Assembly: GCF_001458335.1 (NCBI RefSeq)
Contig: NZ_CYTO01000009.1
Coordinates: 320,385-384,384 of the forward strand
Length of the DNA: 64,000 bases
Source: Cognatishimia activa
GTDB lineage: Bacteria; Pseudomonadota; Alphaproteobacteria; Rhodobacterales; Rhodobacteraceae
Direction of reading: 5' to 3'
The translations under genes and the position numbers were made by a program. The notes beneath the pieces were generated by a model. The model ran no database searches, was not told the origin of the DNA, and was given only the letters and a program-made list of their open reading frames with translations. Of the stretch, positions 12,432 through 34,311 are shown piece after piece; the stretch's first letter is position 1, and every line of letters starts with the position of its first letter.

Positions 12432-12511
12432 CACTTAAGCAATACTTTGGCATGGAAACTTCCCCGCTTTCGCCCTAAGACAAAGGCTAAGAACCAGTGA
12501 GAGAGGCATCC

Positions 12512-13765
12512 ATGGCCAACGATCTTTTCAACAGCTTCATGAACGGTCCCGATGAAAAAGGCCGTTTCGGTGATTTCGGCGGGCGTTTTGTGTCAGAAAC
12601 CCTGATGCCGCTGATCCTTGATCTGGAAGCGGAATATGAAAAGGCAAAGGACGATCCGACCTTTTGGGCGGAGATGGATGACCTGTGGACACATTATGTA
12701 GGCCGCCCAAGCCCGCTGTATTTCGCGCCGCGCATGACCGAGGAACTCGGTGGTGCCAAAATCTATCTCAAGCGCGATGAGCTGAACCACACGGGTGCGC
12801 ATAAGATTAACAACGTGCTGGGTCAGATCATTCTGGCAAAACGCATGGGTAAGACCCGGATTATTGCAGAAACCGGTGCGGGCCAGCACGGCGTTGCCAC
12901 CGCAACGGTCTGCGCGAAGTTCGGTCTGAAATGCGTCGTCTACATGGGTGCCCATGATGTTGAACGCCAAGCGCCAAACGTCTTCCGCATGCGCTTGCTC
13001 GGTGCTGAAGTTGTGCCGGTGACCTCTGGTCGTGGCACACTGAAAGACGCGATGAACGACGCGCTGCGTGACTGGGTGACCAATGTCGCTGACACCTTCT
13101 ACTGCATTGGCACCGTGGCTGGTCCGCACCCATATCCAGCGATGGTGCGCGACTTCCAAGCGATCATCGGCAAAGAGGTCCGCACACAGCTCGCGGAACA
13201 AGAAGGCGAGGGCCGTTTGCCTGATACCGTGATCGCGGCAATCGGTGGCGGCTCCAACGCGATGGGTCTTTTCTTCCCGTTCCTTGACGATGACAGCGTG
13301 AATATCATCGGTGTTGAAGCAGGCGGCAAAGGTGTGAACCAGAAGATGGAGCACTGCGCTTCCCTAACTGGTGGTCGTCCGGGCGTGTTGCATGGCAATC
13401 GGACGTATCTTTTGCAGGATGATGACGGTCAAATCCTTGAAGGGTTCTCGATCTCTGCTGGCCTGGATTACCCGGGGATTGGTCCAGAGCATGCTTGGCT
13501 GCACGACATTGGCCGCGCGCAATATGTATCCATCACCGACAAAGAAGCTCTGGAGGCGTTCCAGTTTGCGTGCCGCACCGAAGGCATCATCCCAGCACTT
13601 GAGCCAAGCCACGCATTGGCACATGTGATGAAGCTCGCGCCAACCCTGCCAAAGGATCATATCCTGGTCATGAACATGTGTGGCCGCGGCGACAAAGATA
13701 TCTTCACGGTGGCCCGTCATCTCGGGTTTGACATGTCAGGCCCCGAGGGCCGCGTGTTCGAATAA
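12512..13765 (+). CDS. trpB: Tryptophan synthase beta chain
   Basis: A 417-aa PLP enzyme that joins indole and serine to give tryptophan. The PLP lysine is Lys98 in HTGAHKIN, and the phosphate-binding loop GGGSNAMG is present. The N-terminal [17 protein letters not shown] is typical of TrpB1. The start was set at ATG 12512, with AGAGAGG just upstream; a GTG at 12497 is possible. It works as an alpha2-beta2 complex with TrpA, encoded at 25.2-26.0 kb in this window. Confidence 0.96.
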
Positions 13766-13998: not shown

Positions 13999-14266
13999 AA
14001 TCCACCTCAGTTCAAAATTAATTCAGATATGCGCGTTTCGGAGTTCCATTTTACTTTATGGTTTCGACGAAATTTGGAAATCGTGTCGGTATCGGTACGT
14101 TCGGCGGCAATGGTGCCTTTGCGCCATAAACTCAAGTTTATGCCCATCCACATTAGGTTGATCTTTGGCTGGATAAACCCGCGTTCAATAGAGAACCCCT
14201 CAATCCTGCTGCATTTGTTTTTCACAGCCAGCGAGACTGCTGGTGCCCAACACATCGGAGAAACAA

Positions 14267-14659
14267 ATGAAAAAACTTCTTGCCACTACCGCCGCGATCA
14301 CACTGGGGTTTGCCACGCAGTCATATGCGCAAAGCTTTACCGACACGATTGTCGCCGACCTTGAAGCGCAAGGTTACACGGACATCGAAGTCGAAACCGA
14401 CGGCGATAAAACTATTGTCGAAGCTGTCCTAGGCGATACCGAGTATGAATTTACTTATGACAGCACCAGCCAGGAGCTTCTTGAGACTGAAGAAGAGCTC
14501 TTCGACGAAGATGATGAAGATGACCTCAAAGATGAAGACGGCGAGGGCGAAGACGAGGATGATGAGGATGATGAGGATGAAGACGAGGATGAAGACGAAG
14601 ATGATGAAGATGATGACGATGAAGATGAGGACGAAGACGACGACGAAGATGATGACTAA
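14267..14659 (+). CDS. Secreted PepSY-like protein with a highly acidic tail
   Basis: A 130-aa protein starting at ATG 14267 behind GGAGAA. Residues 1-21 are a signal peptide ending SYAQ. Residues 22-75 resemble a PepSY-type unit: a helix with IVADLEAQGYTDIEVE followed by strands with TIVEAVLGDTEYEFTYD. From about residue 77 to the end almost every residue is Asp or Glu (runs such as EDEDDEDDEDEDEDEDE). Such a tail would be strongly anionic and could bind divalent cations in the periplasm or outside. A paralogue follows 118 bases downstream. Function unknown; the PepSY assignment is by pattern only. Confidence 0.75.
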   Translation: MKKLLATTAAITLGFATQSYAQSFTDTIVADLEAQGYTDIEVETDGDKTIVEAVLGDTEYEFTYDSTSQELLETEEELFDEDDEDDLKDEDGEGEDEDDEDDEDEDEDEDEDDEDDDDEDEDEDDDEDDD

Positions 14660-14722
14660 CTAAGGCAGGGTAACAGGGCCTTGTCTTGAATTTCCCAGTC
14701 TAGTCCTGTTTATCCTCAGGCT

Positions 14723-14754
14723 GGTCCGTGTTGCATCCCCCGAAAGCACGGACC
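14723..14754 (+). promoter_or_regulatory. Stem-loop between the two acidic-protein genes
   Basis: A perfect 8-bp inverted repeat (GGTCCGTG / CACGGACC) with a 16-base loop sits just before the ribosome site of the second acidic-protein gene. There is no T-run, so it is more likely an mRNA processing or stability element than a terminator. Confidence 0.4.
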
Positions 14755-14776
14755 GGCCATTGCCATTGGAGGCACC

Positions 14777-15148
14777 ATGCAACATCGAATGATACTCGTA
14801 GCCACACTATGCGCCGTTTTGGCGACGCCTGCTTTTGCCAATCCGCATGTTGACCGCATCGTGAGCCAGCTGAAGGCTGAAGGCTATAACAGCTTTGAAA
14901 TGGAACGCACCTGGTTGGGGCGCATCCGGATTGAAGCAGAAAAAGGCGATATCGACCGTGAGATCGTGATCAACCGCAGCACTGGCGAGGTTCTTCGGGA
15001 TTACCTTGTAGAAGAAGGTGGCTTGTTCTCGGATGGGGAAGACGAGGACGATGATGAGGACAAGAAAGAAGAAGAAGACGAAGACGAAGAGGATGATGGT
15101 GATGATGACGATGGCGAAGATGAGGAAGATGATGATGACTCTGACTAG
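14777..15148 (+). CDS. Second secreted PepSY-like protein with acidic tail
   Basis: A 123-aa paralogue of the preceding protein. It has a signal peptide (cleavage after ATPAFA), then a PepSY-like unit beginning VDRIVSQLKAEGYNSFEME and ending TGEVLRDYLVEE. From about residue 85 it has an Asp/Glu-rich tail, here with a few Lys and Gly. The ATG at 14777 follows TTGGAGGCACC. The order signal peptide, PepSY-like unit, acidic tail is the same in both proteins, while their middle parts are only distantly similar, so the duplication is old. The gene precedes a membrane-anchored HTH regulator by 35 bases. Confidence 0.75.
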   Translation: MQHRMILVATLCAVLATPAFANPHVDRIVSQLKAEGYNSFEMERTWLGRIRIEAEKGDIDREIVINRSTGEVLRDYLVEEGGLFSDGEDEDDDEDKKEEEDEDEEDDGDDDDGEDEEDDDDSD

Positions 15149-15183
15149 CCATTTGTCCCATCTTCAGACCACGGAGAAGCGCA

Positions 15184-15663
15184 TTGGATAAAAAGCATCT
15201 TTTGCTGCTTCTGGCCGTTGTTCAGATCGGCTGCGCACTCTTTTTTGTTTCAGAGATAGTCTTAACGATATTTGGCGGGCGTACTGCCCCCATCAGCTGG
15301 CGCCTTCGCGAGCTGTTAGAAATTGGTGCGGCTGTGGGTTTGCTTTTAGGCACAAGCTTTGCGTTTGTCGCGCTAAGAACCGCCCAAAAACAGCAGGCAA
15401 AGGCCGAGGAAAGCCTGCGGCAGGTTCAATCTTCATTTCACGAACATCTTGAGGAAAGGTTTGACCAATGGGCGCTCACCAAAGCGGAACGAGATGTGGC
15501 TCTGTTTTCATTAAAAGGTCTATCGGTCTCAGAGATTGCTGGCGTGCGTGAGACGTCAGAAGGCACGGTGAAAGCACAAAGCAATGCGATCTATCGCAAA
15601 GCTGGAGTCAGTGGGCGCAGCCAGTTGCTGAGCCTGTTCATCGAAGATCTGATTGTTGACTAG
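15184..15663 (+). CDS. Membrane-anchored LuxR-type HTH protein
   Basis: A 159-aa protein with two N-terminal membrane helices (about residues 5-29 and 44-65), a short coiled-coil linker and a C-terminal LuxR/GerE-type helix-turn-helix. The HTH shows LTKAERDVALFSLKGLSVSEIAG and EGTVKAQSNAIYRKAGVSG spread over residues 98-145. The start is TTG at 15184, chosen because GGAG lies eight bases before it. The topology puts the DNA-binding domain in the cytoplasm and leaves only a short periplasmic loop. Its close linkage to two secreted acidic proteins suggests that it senses them or controls their genes; this is inference. Its stop overlaps that of the convergent DUF2237 gene (CTAG shared). Confidence 0.8.
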   Translation: MDKKHLLLLLAVVQIGCALFFVSEIVLTIFGGRTAPISWRLRELLEIGAAVGLLLGTSFAFVALRTAQKQQAKAEESLRQVQSSFHEHLEERFDQWALTKAERDVALFSLKGLSVSEIAGVRETSEGTVKAQSNAIYRKAGVSGRSQLLSLFIEDLIVD

Positions 15664-16031
15664 GTTGCAGTGTGCTCTTCCAAAATCCGCAATGGGATGA
15701 TTTCAAGAGCGCGTCCATGAGTGGCATTTAAATAGACCTTTGGCGCACAGCCTTCGTCATGGGCTTGCAGAAAGCGCGATGCACAAAGACACCACTTGTC
15801 GCCGGGGTTGAGGCCGGGAAAACCGAACTCTAGCCGCGGCGTAGACAGGTCATTGCCGACATATTTGGAATAGGCGAGAAATTCTGCCGTCATCACCGCA
15901 CAGACCGTATGGCTGCCAGCATCGGCATCACATGTATTACAGTGCCCGTCCCGGAAGAACCCGGTCATTGGGTCACTTGAGCAGGGTTCTAGAGTTTCCC
16001 CCAAGACGTTCAGGGATGGGTCTTTCTGCAT
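15660..16031 (-). CDS. DUF2237 family protein
   Basis: A 123-aa protein matching the small DUF2237 family, which has no established function. Recognisable stretches are PCSSDPMTGFFRDGHCNTC, GSHTVCAVMTAEFL and FGFPGLNPGDKWCLCASRF. Five cysteines and the acidic/aromatic pattern are family-typical. The gene is followed on the same strand by pieces of the plus-strand regulator, with which it shares the CTAG stop-codon overlap. It lies 13 bases downstream of the DUF2332 gene and is probably co-transcribed with it and pth. Confidence 0.88.
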   Translation of the reverse strand: MQKDPSLNVLGETLEPCSSDPMTGFFRDGHCNTCDADAGSHTVCAVMTAEFLAYSKYVGNDLSTPRLEFGFPGLNPGDKWCLCASRFLQAHDEGCAPKVYLNATHGRALEIIPLRILEEHTAT

Positions 16032-30304: not shown

Positions 30305-32779
30305 ATGGGATACCCACATTCTACCACGGTTCAAGTTGAAGGAATGAGTTGCGCGTCCTGTGTTGGACGGGTGGAACGCAGCCTAGAGGGCGTCAACGGT
30401 CTGACGGATGTGACAGTGAACCTAGCCTCTGAAACGGCGCGGTTCTCTTTTGAGGATACGAAAAACGTCTGGGACGCGGTCGAGGCGCTGCGGGAGCTGG
30501 GGTATCCAGCGCGCGAAAACACGCTAACACTGACAATTGACTCCATGTCTTGTGCGTCTTGTGTGGGGAGAGTGGAAAAAGCTTTGTCCTCCGTGCCGGG
30601 TGTCATTGCGGTCAACGTGAACTTAGCAGCGGAAACGGCACGAGTAACGTTTGTTGAAGGCGCTACAGATGCATCTACGATTCAAAAAGCTGCGACAGAA
30701 GCCGGGTACCCTGCCACAGTGGTGGAGGCGGCAAATACTCCAGACCGCTCAGCGCGAAAGGAAGAAGAGGCCAGTGCACTTGCGCGCCGTGTTTTGTTCG
30801 CATCGATCTTGGCGCTACCGGTGTTTTTGATGGAAATGGGTGGCCATGCTATCCCGGCCTTGCATCATATGATCGGGCAGACAATCGGCCACCAGACCAG
30901 TTGGGTTCTGCAATTCCTGCTTACCACTGCCGTTTTGTTTGGTCCGGGGCGGCAGTTTTATCTTAAAGGGTTTCCGGCACTCTTCAAAGGCGCTCCGGAC
31001 ATGAACAGTTTGGTGGCCGTAGGCACCAGTGCGGCTTACGGCTATTCGGTGATCTCTACTTTTTTACCGCAGCTTTTGCCGGATAACGTGCGCGCGGTCT
31101 ATTTTGAGGCAGCTGCTGTCATCGTCGTGCTGATCCTGCTCGGGCGCTGGATGGAAGCTCGCGCAAAGGGGCGAACCGGGGCAGCGATCCAAAAACTATT
31201 GGGACTGCAGGTGCGCAAGGCGCGTGTGGTACGCGATGGCGCAGAGTCCGAGATCGATGCGACTGACCTGCGCGTCGGCGATCTTGTGATCGTGCGTCCG
31301 GGCGAACGTTTAGCTGCCGATGGCGACGTGACCGAAGGCGAAAGCTATGTCGACGAAAGCATGATCACAGGCGAACCAGTTCCAGTGGTCAAATCCGAAG
31401 GTGCAACCGTGACTGGTGGCACTGTAAATGGTGCAGGCAGCCTGACCTTCCGCGCGGCTCGCGTTGGAAGTGACACAACACTCGCCCAGATCATCCGTAT
31501 GGTGGAAGATGCACAGGGGGCAAAGCTGCCAATTCAAGGTTTGGTGGACCAGATCACATTGCGATTTGTTCCAGCTGTCATGGCAGTGGCTGCTTTTACT
31601 ATAGTGGTTTGGCTGGTCTTGGGTCCAACTCCCACATTGACCAATGCACTCGTGGCGGGTGTTTCGGTTCTAATCATTGCATGCCCCTGTGCCATGGGGT
31701 TGGCAACGCCAACCTCGATCATGGTTGGCACAGGCAGGGCGGCGGGAATGGGTGTGCTCTTCCGAAAGGGGGACGCGCTTCAAACGCTGGGCAAGGTTGA
31801 TATCGTGGCGCTGGACAAGACTGGCACCGTAACGGAAGGCCGGCCGGAGTTGACCGATTTGGTCTTGGCCAGCGGATTTGAACGAAAGGATGTCCTACGC
31901 CTTGTGGCCTCAGTAGAAGCGCGTTCCGAGCATCCGATTGCCGATGCTATCGTGCGCGCCGCTAAAGCGGAAGGCGTTGAGCTATCTGAAGCGAATGAGT
32001 TTGTCTCAGCGACCGGGTATGGCGTCGCAGCTCAGGTTGAAGGGCGAGAGGTCTTAATCGGAGCGGATCGTTTGATGCAGCGGGAGGGTATCGTGCTTCA
32101 ATCGCTAAGCGAGGTGGAAAGCGAGATTGCAAAATCTGGGCGGTCCGCACTCTTTGCGGCCATTGATGGTCAGATTGCCGCCGTCGTTGGTGTGGCTGAT
32201 CCGGTCAAATCCAATAGTCGCAACGCAATCGCAAAGCTGAAAGCCAAGGGTCTGAAAGTCGTGATGATCACAGGCGATAAACAAGAGACAGCAGAAGCCA
32301 TTGCTCGCGAGACAGGGATTGAGCACGTCGTGGCAGGTGTCTTGCCGGATGCCAAATCCAAGGCGATTGAAGCACTTTCCAAAGAAGGCAGTGTGGCCTT
32401 TGTTGGTGATGGAATCAACGATGCCCCAGCGCTGGCGCGTGCAGATGTGGGGATTGCGATTGGCACCGGCACGGATGTCGCCATCGAAAGCGCTGATGTG
32501 GTTTTAATGTCAGGCGATCTTGGCGGAGTGGTCAACGGTATCGAAGCTTCGGCCAGCACTCTGCGCAATATCAAGCAGAACCTGGGCTGGGCATTTGGCT
32601 ATAACATAGCTTTGATTCCAGTTGCAGCAGGAGTTCTTTTTCCTGTCTTTGGCCTATTGTTATCGCCAGTTCTTGCCGCAGGCGCGATGGCGCTCAGCTC
32701 GGTTTTTGTCCTGACGAATGCACTGAGGTTGCGTTGGATAAAACCGGCGTTGGACGACACATCCCAAGTGCCGGCGTGA
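30305..32779 (+). CDS. copA: Cu(I)-exporting P1B-type ATPase
   Basis: An 824-aa P-type ATPase that pumps Cu(I) out of the cytoplasm. Two N-terminal HMA domains carry EGMSCASC and DSMSCASC. Eight membrane helices follow, with the transport motif IACPCAMGLATPTS. The actuator motif TGEP, phosphorylation site LDKTGTVTEG, HP motif SEHPIADA and hinge GDGINDAPALA are all intact. Length and order of domains are normal. It follows the small chaperone gene, and together they make a copper-resistance unit. Confidence 0.97.
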   Translation: MGYPHSTTVQVEGMSCASCVGRVERSLEGVNGLTDVTVNLASETARFSFEDTKNVWDAVEALRELGYPARENTLTLTIDSMSCASCVGRVEKALSSVPGVIAVNVNLAAETARVTFVEGATDASTIQKAATEAGYPATVVEAANTPDRSARKEEEASALARRVLFASILALPVFLMEMGGHAIPALHHMIGQTIGHQTSWVLQFLLTTAVLFGPGRQFYLKGFPALFKGAPDMNSLVAVGTSAAYGYSVISTFLPQLLPDNVRAVYFEAAAVIVVLILLGRWMEARAKGRTGAAIQKLLGLQVRKARVVRDGAESEIDATDLRVGDLVIVRPGERLAADGDVTEGESYVDESMITGEPVPVVKSEGATVTGGTVNGAGSLTFRAARVGSDTTLAQIIRMVEDAQGAKLPIQGLVDQITLRFVPAVMAVAAFTIVVWLVLGPTPTLTNALVAGVSVLIIACPCAMGLATPTSIMVGTGRAAGMGVLFRKGDALQTLGKVDIVALDKTGTVTEGRPELTDLVLASGFERKDVLRLVASVEARSEHPIADAIVRAAKAEGVELSEANEFVSATGYGVAAQVEGREVLIGADRLMQREGIVLQSLSEVESEIAKSGRSALFAAIDGQIAAVVGVADPVKSNSRNAIAKLKAKGLKVVMITGDKQETAEAIARETGIEHVVAGVLPDAKSKAIEALSKEGSVAFVGDGINDAPALARADVGIAIGTGTDVAIESADVVLMSGDLGGVVNGIEASASTLRNIKQNLGWAFGYNIALIPVAAGVLFPVFGLLLSPVLAAGAMALSSVFVLTNALRLRWIKPALDDTSQVPA

Positions 32780-33019
32780 TCAAACCCACATGAGTGGTCC
32801 AGTTTGATTGTTAGTTCATGATCGGCCTATGGTCCATCTGCATGATGGTTTTGTGAGGCGTTTGTAACCCAACAAAATCCGTACATCTAAACAAACGTTT
32901 AGTTTGTTTCGTCCCGGGATCTTGAACTCAGCGCACCCGTTGGTTGGGTGGGCAACAACACTGCGAATTGTTTCGGTGTTTTGAAGGTATCTCTGATGAT
33001 ACCGATTGTCGGTAGATCG

Positions 33020-33090: not shown

Positions 33091-34311
33091 TCAAAGTTGC
33101 AGTTGCTTAAGGTCTTCGTAAGCGCCTGAAACCGTTGGTGTCAGCGGGAAAAGCACCGCCTGTATCGAGTGATAGATGTCAGGCTTGCCTTCAAATTGCG
33201 TCACTGTCGGAACGCCATTCGCATCAATCTCCGGGAACCACCCCCCATTTTCTTGATCGACGAAATGAGTGCGCGCAAAGTCCCATACGCGATTGTACCA
33301 TTCTAGATCAGAGGCGGCGGCATCCGTCTTCATTAGGGCGGCTAGAACACCGATGGCTTCAGTCACGGGCCACCAATAGCGGTCTGTGATGTCAGGTGTG
33401 CCGTCGAAATTCAAAGTATAGCAAAAGCCGCCCGCTTCGGTGTTCCATGCGTCCTCGAGGGCGCGGTAGGCGATCGTTCTGGCGGTTGCGATGCGGTCTG
33501 CGTTTGGTTGGCCGCAGAGTTCGTTGAACTGCAGTAAAAGTCTTGCAATTTCAAAGGAATGGCCGGGTGTCGTGCCTGCTGGCCGAAACATTGGGTTGCC
33601 GCTATAGCTGCGGTCTACGGCCCAGTTTTCCATATAGTGTTCGGGCAGCCTCCAACCCTCTGACGGGGCGATTTTGTGGGCGAAGAAATGAAGGATGCGG
33701 CTGGCCCTATCCAGATATTTCTCTCGGCCCGTCGCTTCAAACGCCGCAAGTAAAGCCTCAATTCCATGCATGTTGGCATTCATGCCGCGATAGGTCGAAA
33801 AAGGCGTCCAATCCGCATTGAATTCATCGCAGAAGAGACCGTGATCCTCTTCCCAAAAACGTTGTTCCAGAATCTGATCCACGTCCTCAAGCAACGCCAT
33901 TGCGTCTGGATGATCCACCGCAAGAGCGCTTGATGCTGCTAGCAAAACAAAGACGTGCCCGTAGGCGAGTTTGCGACCGTCGTGAATGTCAGCGCCCTCT
34001 AGGGCCCATAGATACCCGCCATGCGCTGCGTCTCTGTGGTGGGAGAAAAGGTACGAGACACCTTGATCGATGATGTTGTCACAATTGTTGCGTCCAGCAA
34101 GTTTGCCCAACGCGAAAGAGTGCACAAGACGCGTGGTGGTGTGTAGTTCTTGAACTGCGCTAGGTAACGGTTGTCCGGTGAGGTCCAGAGTGTAAAAACC
34201 GCCCGAAGGACAAAGGCTTGGCTGAAAAAAATCAAATTGGGTCTTAGCGTTCTGGACCAAAAAGTTCTGATGGTCTGGGGTCATCCAATGAGCTTGGGAG
34301 AAAGCGGACAT
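33091..34311 (-). CDS. AGE-family sugar epimerase/isomerase
   Basis: A 406-aa (alpha/alpha)6-barrel protein of the N-acylglucosamine 2-epimerase superfamily, which includes mannose isomerase, sulfoquinovose isomerase YihS and cellobiose 2-epimerase. Conserved stretches are RGMNANMHGIEALLAAFEATG near residue 180, GHSFEIARLLLQ near 250 and RYWWPVTEAIGVLAAL near 320, the last two contributing catalytic His and Glu. Beside it lie a LacI regulator and a PfkB-type kinase, so mannose-to-fructose isomerisation followed by phosphorylation is a sensible guess. The exact aldose is not determined. Confidence 0.87.
   Translation of the reverse strand: MSAFSQAHWMTPDHQNFLVQNAKTQFDFFQPSLCPSGGFYTLDLTGQPLPSAVQELHTTTRLVHSFALGKLAGRNNCDNIIDQGVSYLFSHHRDAAHGGYLWALEGADIHDGRKLAYGHVFVLLAASSALAVDHPDAMALLEDVDQILEQRFWEEDHGLFCDEFNADWTPFSTYRGMNANMHGIEALLAAFEATGREKYLDRASRILHFFAHKIAPSEGWRLPEHYMENWAVDRSYSGNPMFRPAGTTPGHSFEIARLLLQFNELCGQPNADRIATARTIAYRALEDAWNTEAGGFCYTLNFDGTPDITDRYWWPVTEAIGVLAALMKTDAAASDLEWYNRVWDFARTHFVDQENGGWFPEIDANGVPTVTQFEGKPDIYHSIQAVLFPLTPTVSGAYEDLKQLQL

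Follow-up and report, generated by a model that had tools for sequence, protein, structure and literature searches.

What might two secreted proteins that end almost exclusively in aspartate and glutamate be doing beside a membrane-bound transcription factor? This question is raised by a locus within a 64,000-nucleotide stretch of the Cognatishimia activa genome, hereafter the window, in which three plus-strand genes follow one another: Acid1 (14267 to 14659, 130 amino acids), Acid2 (14777 to 15148, 123 amino acids), and a membrane helix-turn-helix (HTH) gene (15184 to 15663, 159 amino acids, TTG start). The gaps between them measure 117 nt (Acid1 to Acid2) and 35 nt (Acid2 to HTH), and their ribosome sites are GGAG-like. 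The module is flanked upstream by trpB (12497 to 13765, named from its sequence) and downstream by a minus-strand DUF2237 gene (15660 to 16031; PF09996, 1e-52), and inspection by eye of the neighbors between 11000 and 19000 found no kinase or receiver-like open reading frame (ORF). A preliminary description of this DNA had reported two acidic secreted proteins next to a membrane HTH protein, and the three ORFs are indeed found there.

Acid1 and Acid2 share a common plan, consisting of a signal peptide (judged by eye), a PepSY-like unit that spans approximately residues 23 to 79 in Acid2, and an acidic tail. Aspartate and glutamate occupy 47 of the 52 residues in the Acid1 tail (79 to 130) and 32 of 38 in the Acid2 tail (86 to 123), in agreement with the earlier characterization of these tails as almost only Asp/Glu; the length of 40 to 55 residues given for them fits Acid1 but slightly overstates Acid2. 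The tails do not reflect chance, because the best 40-residue share of these two amino acids is 95% in Acid1 and 80% in Acid2, versus a maximum of 35% elsewhere among the 299 window ORFs of at least 60 amino acids.

The PepSY-like label, which was also part of that description, is right but weak by sequence. When tested against the Pfam PepSY families (PF13670 and PF03413), Acid1 and Acid2 scored 16.2 and 15.4 bits, respectively, for PepSY_2, which is under the cut-off of 24.3. PepSY_2 matches at E values up to 0.1 were obtained for 17 of 63 Acid2 homologs, the best at 6.6e-6. AlphaFold2 modeled the Acid2 core (residues 23 to 79) as one helix and four strands with a pLDDT above 90, leaving the tail at low confidence, and comparison of Acid2 to the PDB by fold (Foldseek) and by profile gave no confident match.

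The third protein is a clearer case. It passes the Pfam GerE model (PF00196) with 28.5 bits against a gathering score of 23.5, and its AlphaFold2 model (mean pLDDT, 87) places helices at residues 3 to 29 and 39 to 95 ahead of a GerE-type bundle at approximately residues 98 to 158, which upholds the earlier view of two helices fused to a LuxR-type HTH. Foldseek ranked the DNA-binding domains of StyR, VraR, DosR, and NarL as the top matches of the HTH domain (best E value, 0.003). The hydrophobicity of the first helix and of the start of the second was assessed by eye, and we infer from the protein a membrane topology with a periplasmic portion. This predicted periplasmic loop is very short and carries the motif P-x2-W-x3-E (P36, W39, and E43 in the window protein).

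Is this gene arrangement a peculiarity of one genome? The HTH protein occurs in 29 of 60 relatives and, at E values up to 1e-25, in 142 of 246 family genomes that represent one genome per genus. The claim that regulators of this kind are rare is therefore not supported, also in light of a survey that describes transmembrane regulators as widespread (PMC10269533).

When named genomes were scanned with the HTH alignment, at least 546 relatives were retrieved, and we analyzed the best 80. At 79 of these 80 loci, an Acid2-type PepSY gene lies directly upstream of the HTH gene on the same strand, and the remaining locus is truncated by its contig, which begins 10 bases ahead of the match. Only two other PepSY matches were present in the 491 kb that make up these best 80 loci. 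Some seeds of the Acid1 and Acid2 profiles came from the same contigs as the best 80 (e.g., L074, L075, L080, and L124), and so those loci are not independent. Moreover, searching the 246 family genomes with the Acid2 core matched 111, all 111 of which have the HTH protein, while none of the 104 genomes lacking the HTH protein contained Acid2. The three-gene order, which the preliminary description had put forward as a check, is conserved in its Acid2-HTH part. Among 60 loci with long flanks, trpB is retained upstream in 49 and the DUF2237 gene downstream in 46. Two genomes have duplicated modules, one as two convergent Acid2-HTH pairs (L162/L176, G157:C4) and the other as two tandem HTH genes with Acid2-type genes (L197, G471:C6).

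Acid1 is a less regular component. Acid1-type genes are present at 53 of the best 80 loci from at least 546 relatives, and across 137 loci with more than 1.9 kb of upstream DNA, 82 have a PepSY-type Acid1 together with Acid2, 54 have Acid2 without a PepSY-type Acid1, and one, L227, has neither. Acid1 is therefore missing or unrecognized in many loci. In two Acid1 homologs (L041, 3325 to 4314, and L048, 8550 to 9314), two tandem PepSY-like units, each with its own profile match, precede the acidic tail.

Acid2 tails vary while the core is conserved, being acidic, rich in Gly/Ser, or short, with D/E contents from 8 to 80%. Within the best 80 of at least 546 relatives, D/E content falls below 25% in 17 of 79 Acid2 tails and in 6 of 53 Acid1 tails; the median is 61% for Acid1 and 43% for Acid2, making Acid1 the more acidic on average. 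The shared core of the module is consequently the Acid2 PepSY core plus the membrane HTH protein, not the acidic tail. Similar C-terminal stretches (like F.YLTGG...DI.F) end proteins of the L093, L127, and L135 operons, and in L127 and L135 such a stretch occurs in both upstream genes; it is perhaps a sorting signal.

An operator-like palindrome, CATAAAC-TCAA-GTTTATG (CATAAACTCAAGTTTATG), lies at 14125 to 14142, with its center 133 bp before the Acid1 start codon. A dyad search of 143 upstream regions, comprising the window and 142 relatives, recovered exact TAAAC-N4-GTTTA in 71, whereas none of the 143 had it in any of five shuffles, in which any dyad appeared at most 4 times; the median position of the center is -137 from the start codon. 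By weight matrix, 80 of the 143 regions stand out. Among Acid2-class loci with at least 1.5 kb upstream, the exact palindrome is found in 96 of 141 and is lacking in 45, and the reversed pattern is found in none of the 141. It is present in 4 of 29 loci of the short-PepSY class, of which two (L051 and L238) are broken Acid2-type loci, and in 1 of 13 loci of the class without PepSY, namely L227. A consensus anchored on the palindrome in the 71 regions reads GGTTTA, 12 bases, TAAACC, and a CAAT-like element; the rest of this conserved promoter region lies in the window on the plus strand between 14156 and 14192 and comprises a degenerate half-site (GGTTGA for GGTTTA), a TAAACC half-site at 14174 with one mismatch to consensus, and a CAAT element.

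Genome-wide counts restrict how this site can be interpreted. In the 3.36-Mb genome from which the window derives, exact TAAAC-N4-GTTTA occurs at two places, and the reversed pattern gives five forward matches. The other exact site is in the window too, at 32888 to 32901, between the genes at 30305 to 32779, which by eye resembles a copper-type P-ATPase, and 33091 to 34311; the sequence on either side departs from the longer motif, and the site may be a chance occurrence. Across the 246 genomes, TAAAC-N4-GTTTATG yields 73 sites in 70 genomes, and at least 52 of the 73 are located upstream of an HTH gene at a distance of no more than 2.6 kb, a lower bound given that the HTH places compared were part of those found in these genomes. 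Sites occur in 62 of 142 genomes with the HTH protein versus 8 of 104 without it. The reversed control is about as frequent genome-wide as the palindrome (approximately 70 genomes each), and hence only the position of the palindrome argues for function. We make no claim to a wider regulon, since the other sites in the 246 genomes are no more numerous than the reversed control. Covariation between the recognition helix and the palindrome was considered and set aside as weak: columns 125, 131, and 134 correlate, yet so do 84, 96, and 152. The simplest reading of the positional data suggests that the palindrome is the operator for the module's own regulator, with an HTH dimer as its predicted ligand. 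Because the palindrome stands in front of the module, the HTH protein likely controls the acidic genes, and we are confident that the three genes constitute a co-conserved, autoregulated module.

Comparison of HTH proteins by the company they keep suggests that the loop may be the part that deals with Acid2. After the removal of 9 duplicates from 224 and with the class counts excluding matches whose profile alignment starts after position 60, 215 distinct HTH proteins were sorted by neighbor: 157 have Acid2, 32 another PepSY-like gene, 21 none, and 5 lie at a contig edge. In the Acid2 class, E43 is present in all 157 loops, W39 in 153, and P36 in 143. In the 53 proteins of the other-PepSY and no-PepSY classes, these residues are present in 5, 5, and 7, respectively. 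E46 was a candidate for the same motif, being found in 143 of the 157 Acid2-class proteins (Q in the remaining 14), but it was rejected, as 52 of the 53 proteins of the other classes have it; that commonality lowered our confidence that Acid2 acts via the loop. On the Acid2 side, T45, L47, R49, R51, R61, R74, and D75 are invariant across 63 proteins, and these mostly basic residues could face the loop of the HTH protein.

Phylogeny places a bound on this association. A tree built from 113 of the 215 rows groups all 55 Acid2 rows in one clade of 64 (support, 100/96), and because the Acid2 class forms a single clade, the link between Acid2 and the loop amounts to shared descent plus one coupled loss. 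That loss is seen inside the Acid2 clade in a sub-clade of L053, L266, and L304 (99/84 in a tree of 70 rows), whose genomes lack Acid2 at E values up to 1e-8 and whose loops have lost W39 and E43 (by eye in the case of L304). According to these sequences, Acid2 and the loop motif were lost together in one event; L304 had been a candidate for a second, independent loss, but given its grouping with L053 and L266, a single event suffices. The palindrome is retained at L304, with a short, nonacidic, secreted-looking gene behind it, and is absent at L053; upstream DNA at L266 is too short to judge. L227 has kept the loop motif without any PepSY gene.

Two loci resemble gene fusions. L051 looked like an Acid2-HTH fusion that might serve as a Rosetta stone, but the missing first helix lies in another frame, which identifies a frameshift. 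In L238 (2138 to 2605), the HTH ORF opens with an Acid2-like signal peptide that runs into the second helix; this could be a deletion of the PepSY core, tail, and first helix, either real or due to an assembly error, and the locus was given no weight as a fusion.

Clues to the signal come from genomes in which something else takes the place of Acid1. Twelve acidic ORFs have no PepSY match, of which L228 (not secreted looking) and L231 (masked) were set aside. At L090, L102, L123, L126, L127, and L196, and less clearly at L096, the Acid1 position is occupied by a secreted-looking, acidic-tailed protein without a recognized PepSY core. At L118, L146, and L227 (3 of 215 rows), a pattern scan for paired 12-residue Ca2+ loops identified instead an EF-hand pair with an Asp tail; five more pattern matches lie in the tails of PepSY proteins and were set aside. 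The EF-hand parts of L118 and L227 match calcium-binding proteins in the PDB (3.1e-7 and 6.1e-5, respectively) and each other at 45% identity, although the Pfam EF-hand cut-off was not reached by any of the three (EF-hand_6 at 0.004 for L227 and 0.002 for L146, no match for L118). An exact palindrome is situated upstream in L096, L102, L118, L123, L126, L127, L146, and L227, while L090 has no exact copy and L196 a loose match only. The distance from the palindrome to the likely start, as calculated from coordinates, is about 135 bases in L118, 139 in L146, and 157 in L227.

Considering the linkage and co-occurrence of the genes, the palindrome with its placement, the Acid2-linked loop motif, and the EF-hand proteins in the Acid1 position, all of which are direct products of the comparison, we propose that the module is an autoregulated co-component switch, docked by Acid2, that senses or buffers divalent cations, perhaps Ca2+. 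We assign this full explanation a probability of roughly 0.53. In this model, secreted Acid2 would dock on the short periplasmic loop and set the activity of the HTH protein, a dimer of which would bind CATAAAC-N4-GTTTATG and control its own operon. The main role of Acid1 would be as an output: it would be secreted and present an acidic tail able to bind divalent cations, perhaps Ca2+. Once the tails were loaded with cations, the contact of Acid2 with the loop would change, closing a feedback loop. We infer the Acid2-loop contact, the binding of the HTH protein to the palindrome, the ion, and the sign of control. That Acid2 acts through the loop is somewhat probable. The assignment of Acid2 as the modulator and of Acid1 to a second role draws on the position of the Acid2 gene next to the receptor and on analogy: the kinase DbfS is bound at its sensory domain by the small periplasmic PepSY protein DbfQ, two PepSY genes can precede a kinase, and binding to BqsS is predicted for PA2658 but not for PA2659, as reported in work on the DbfQRS system (PMC12714742).

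A divalent cation as the signal is the weakest step, at even odds, and derives from tail chemistry plus the three EF-hand loci; these loci are also the reason that a cation, perhaps Ca2+, is favored. The cation module of the preliminary description survives to this extent, while its setting in seawater is weakened. Record titles among the 80 top-ranked of at least 546 relatives name carriers such as Tabrizicola, Gemmobacter, and Rhodobacter, which are largely freshwater or soil genera. A more specific version, in which a PepSY subunit with a polyacidic tail would read Ca2+ for a LuxR-type factor and so set a secreted, polyaspartate-like Ca2+ buffer, making the system a one-component Ca2+ sensor, is tentative, and we consider it the less likely side of the question. 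Were the ion Ca2+, calcium sensing in bacteria could be studied in a compact system of two small genes and one operator, and the module would explain the role of long secreted acidic tails in Rhodobacteraceae.

The same observations can be read in other ways. The module might be an envelope-stress switch like DbfQRS, in which Acid2 signals the presence of cationic peptides or damage to the outer membrane and the tails neutralize polycations instead of serving Ca2+ homeostasis. DbfQ-DbfS responds to lipopolysaccharide defects and membrane-damaging agents (PMC12714742), and acidic tails would presumably bind any polycation; nevertheless, the EF-hand proteins that replace Acid1 in three genomes favor Ca2+, and we regard this alternative as unlikely. 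Less likely again is a switch that senses iron, copper, or redox state and has tails that bind transition metals. This idea gains from a sister class of five loci (L059, L240, L246, L248, and L261) in which a short PepSY gene, a cytochrome b561-like gene, and a membrane HTH gene occur together, as well as from reported links between PepSY proteins and metal binding (PMC12714742). The sister-class PepSY proteins are short and secreted looking and have no acidic tail, and the cytochrome gene of L246, the locus covered by the Pfam scan, matches Ni_hydr_CYTB at 1e-24; this class may represent a branch of the same family that is concerned with redox or iron. However, the genes of the window module have no cytochrome gene between them, and acidic tails and EF-hands are better suited to hard divalent cations than to transition metals, as is established chemistry.

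A last alternative dispenses with the Acid2 partnership altogether, such that the tails would be aids to solubility or localization, or templates for biominerals, and the HTH protein would answer another signal. The wide range of tail sequences, from poly-Asp to Gly/Ser rich, is in keeping with this notion, as is L227, which, if functional, works without any PepSY gene. Yet the strict co-occurrence of Acid2 and the HTH protein argues against independence, as does the disappearance of the loop motif together with Acid2, and we hold this to be the least probable of the alternatives. For the Acid2-docked cation switch, the predicted operator and the loop motif are both directly mutable.

How does this module relate to known systems? 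By name, the nearest family is that of the LIC13292 family transcriptional regulators (NF047608), the best NCBIfam match of the HTH protein (residues 34 to 157, 3.7e-19); at 69.5 bits against a cut-off of 200, the protein is not a member, and a literature search for the family name found no paper. Searches combining PepSY with LuxR and Rhodobacter, one-component transmembrane regulators, acidic tail, or Rhodobacteraceae likewise found no paper, within a body of literature that lay mostly outside subscription journals. By architecture, the module resembles the cocomponent systems (ToxR, TcpP, VtrA, and others), in which a one-component regulator anchored in the membrane has an exported partner encoded next to it (PMC10269533). 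The HTH protein has two long helices and a GerE domain in one chain, as a transmembrane regulator does, and an adjacent gene for an exported partner is found at 79 of the best 80 loci from at least 546 relatives. In contrast to these systems, the window module has a GerE/LuxR-type HTH that is C-terminal, after the two helices, and a partner that is PepSY rather than lipocalin-like or ToxS-type; the words LuxR, GerE, and PepSY are absent from the main text of the survey (PMC10269533).

The closest parallel in the partner is DbfQRS, represented by Vibrio cholerae DbfQ and by Pseudomonas PA2658/PA2659 with BqsRS, where one or two small secreted PepSY genes likewise sit just upstream of a membrane signaling protein, and where the binding of PepSY to the membrane protein has been shown for DbfQ and predicted for PA2658 (PMC12714742). 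Unlike DbfQRS, the window module has no histidine kinase or response regulator, as the DNA-binding domain is in the membrane protein itself, and it has long acidic tails and a very short periplasmic loop. By analogy, the best reading is that of a co-component regulator with a PepSY partner, a putative one-component analogue of DbfQRS. Recent work established that periplasmic PepSY proteins modulate a two-component receptor (PMC12714742); in the present case, they are apparently paired, family-wide, with a one-component membrane transcription factor.
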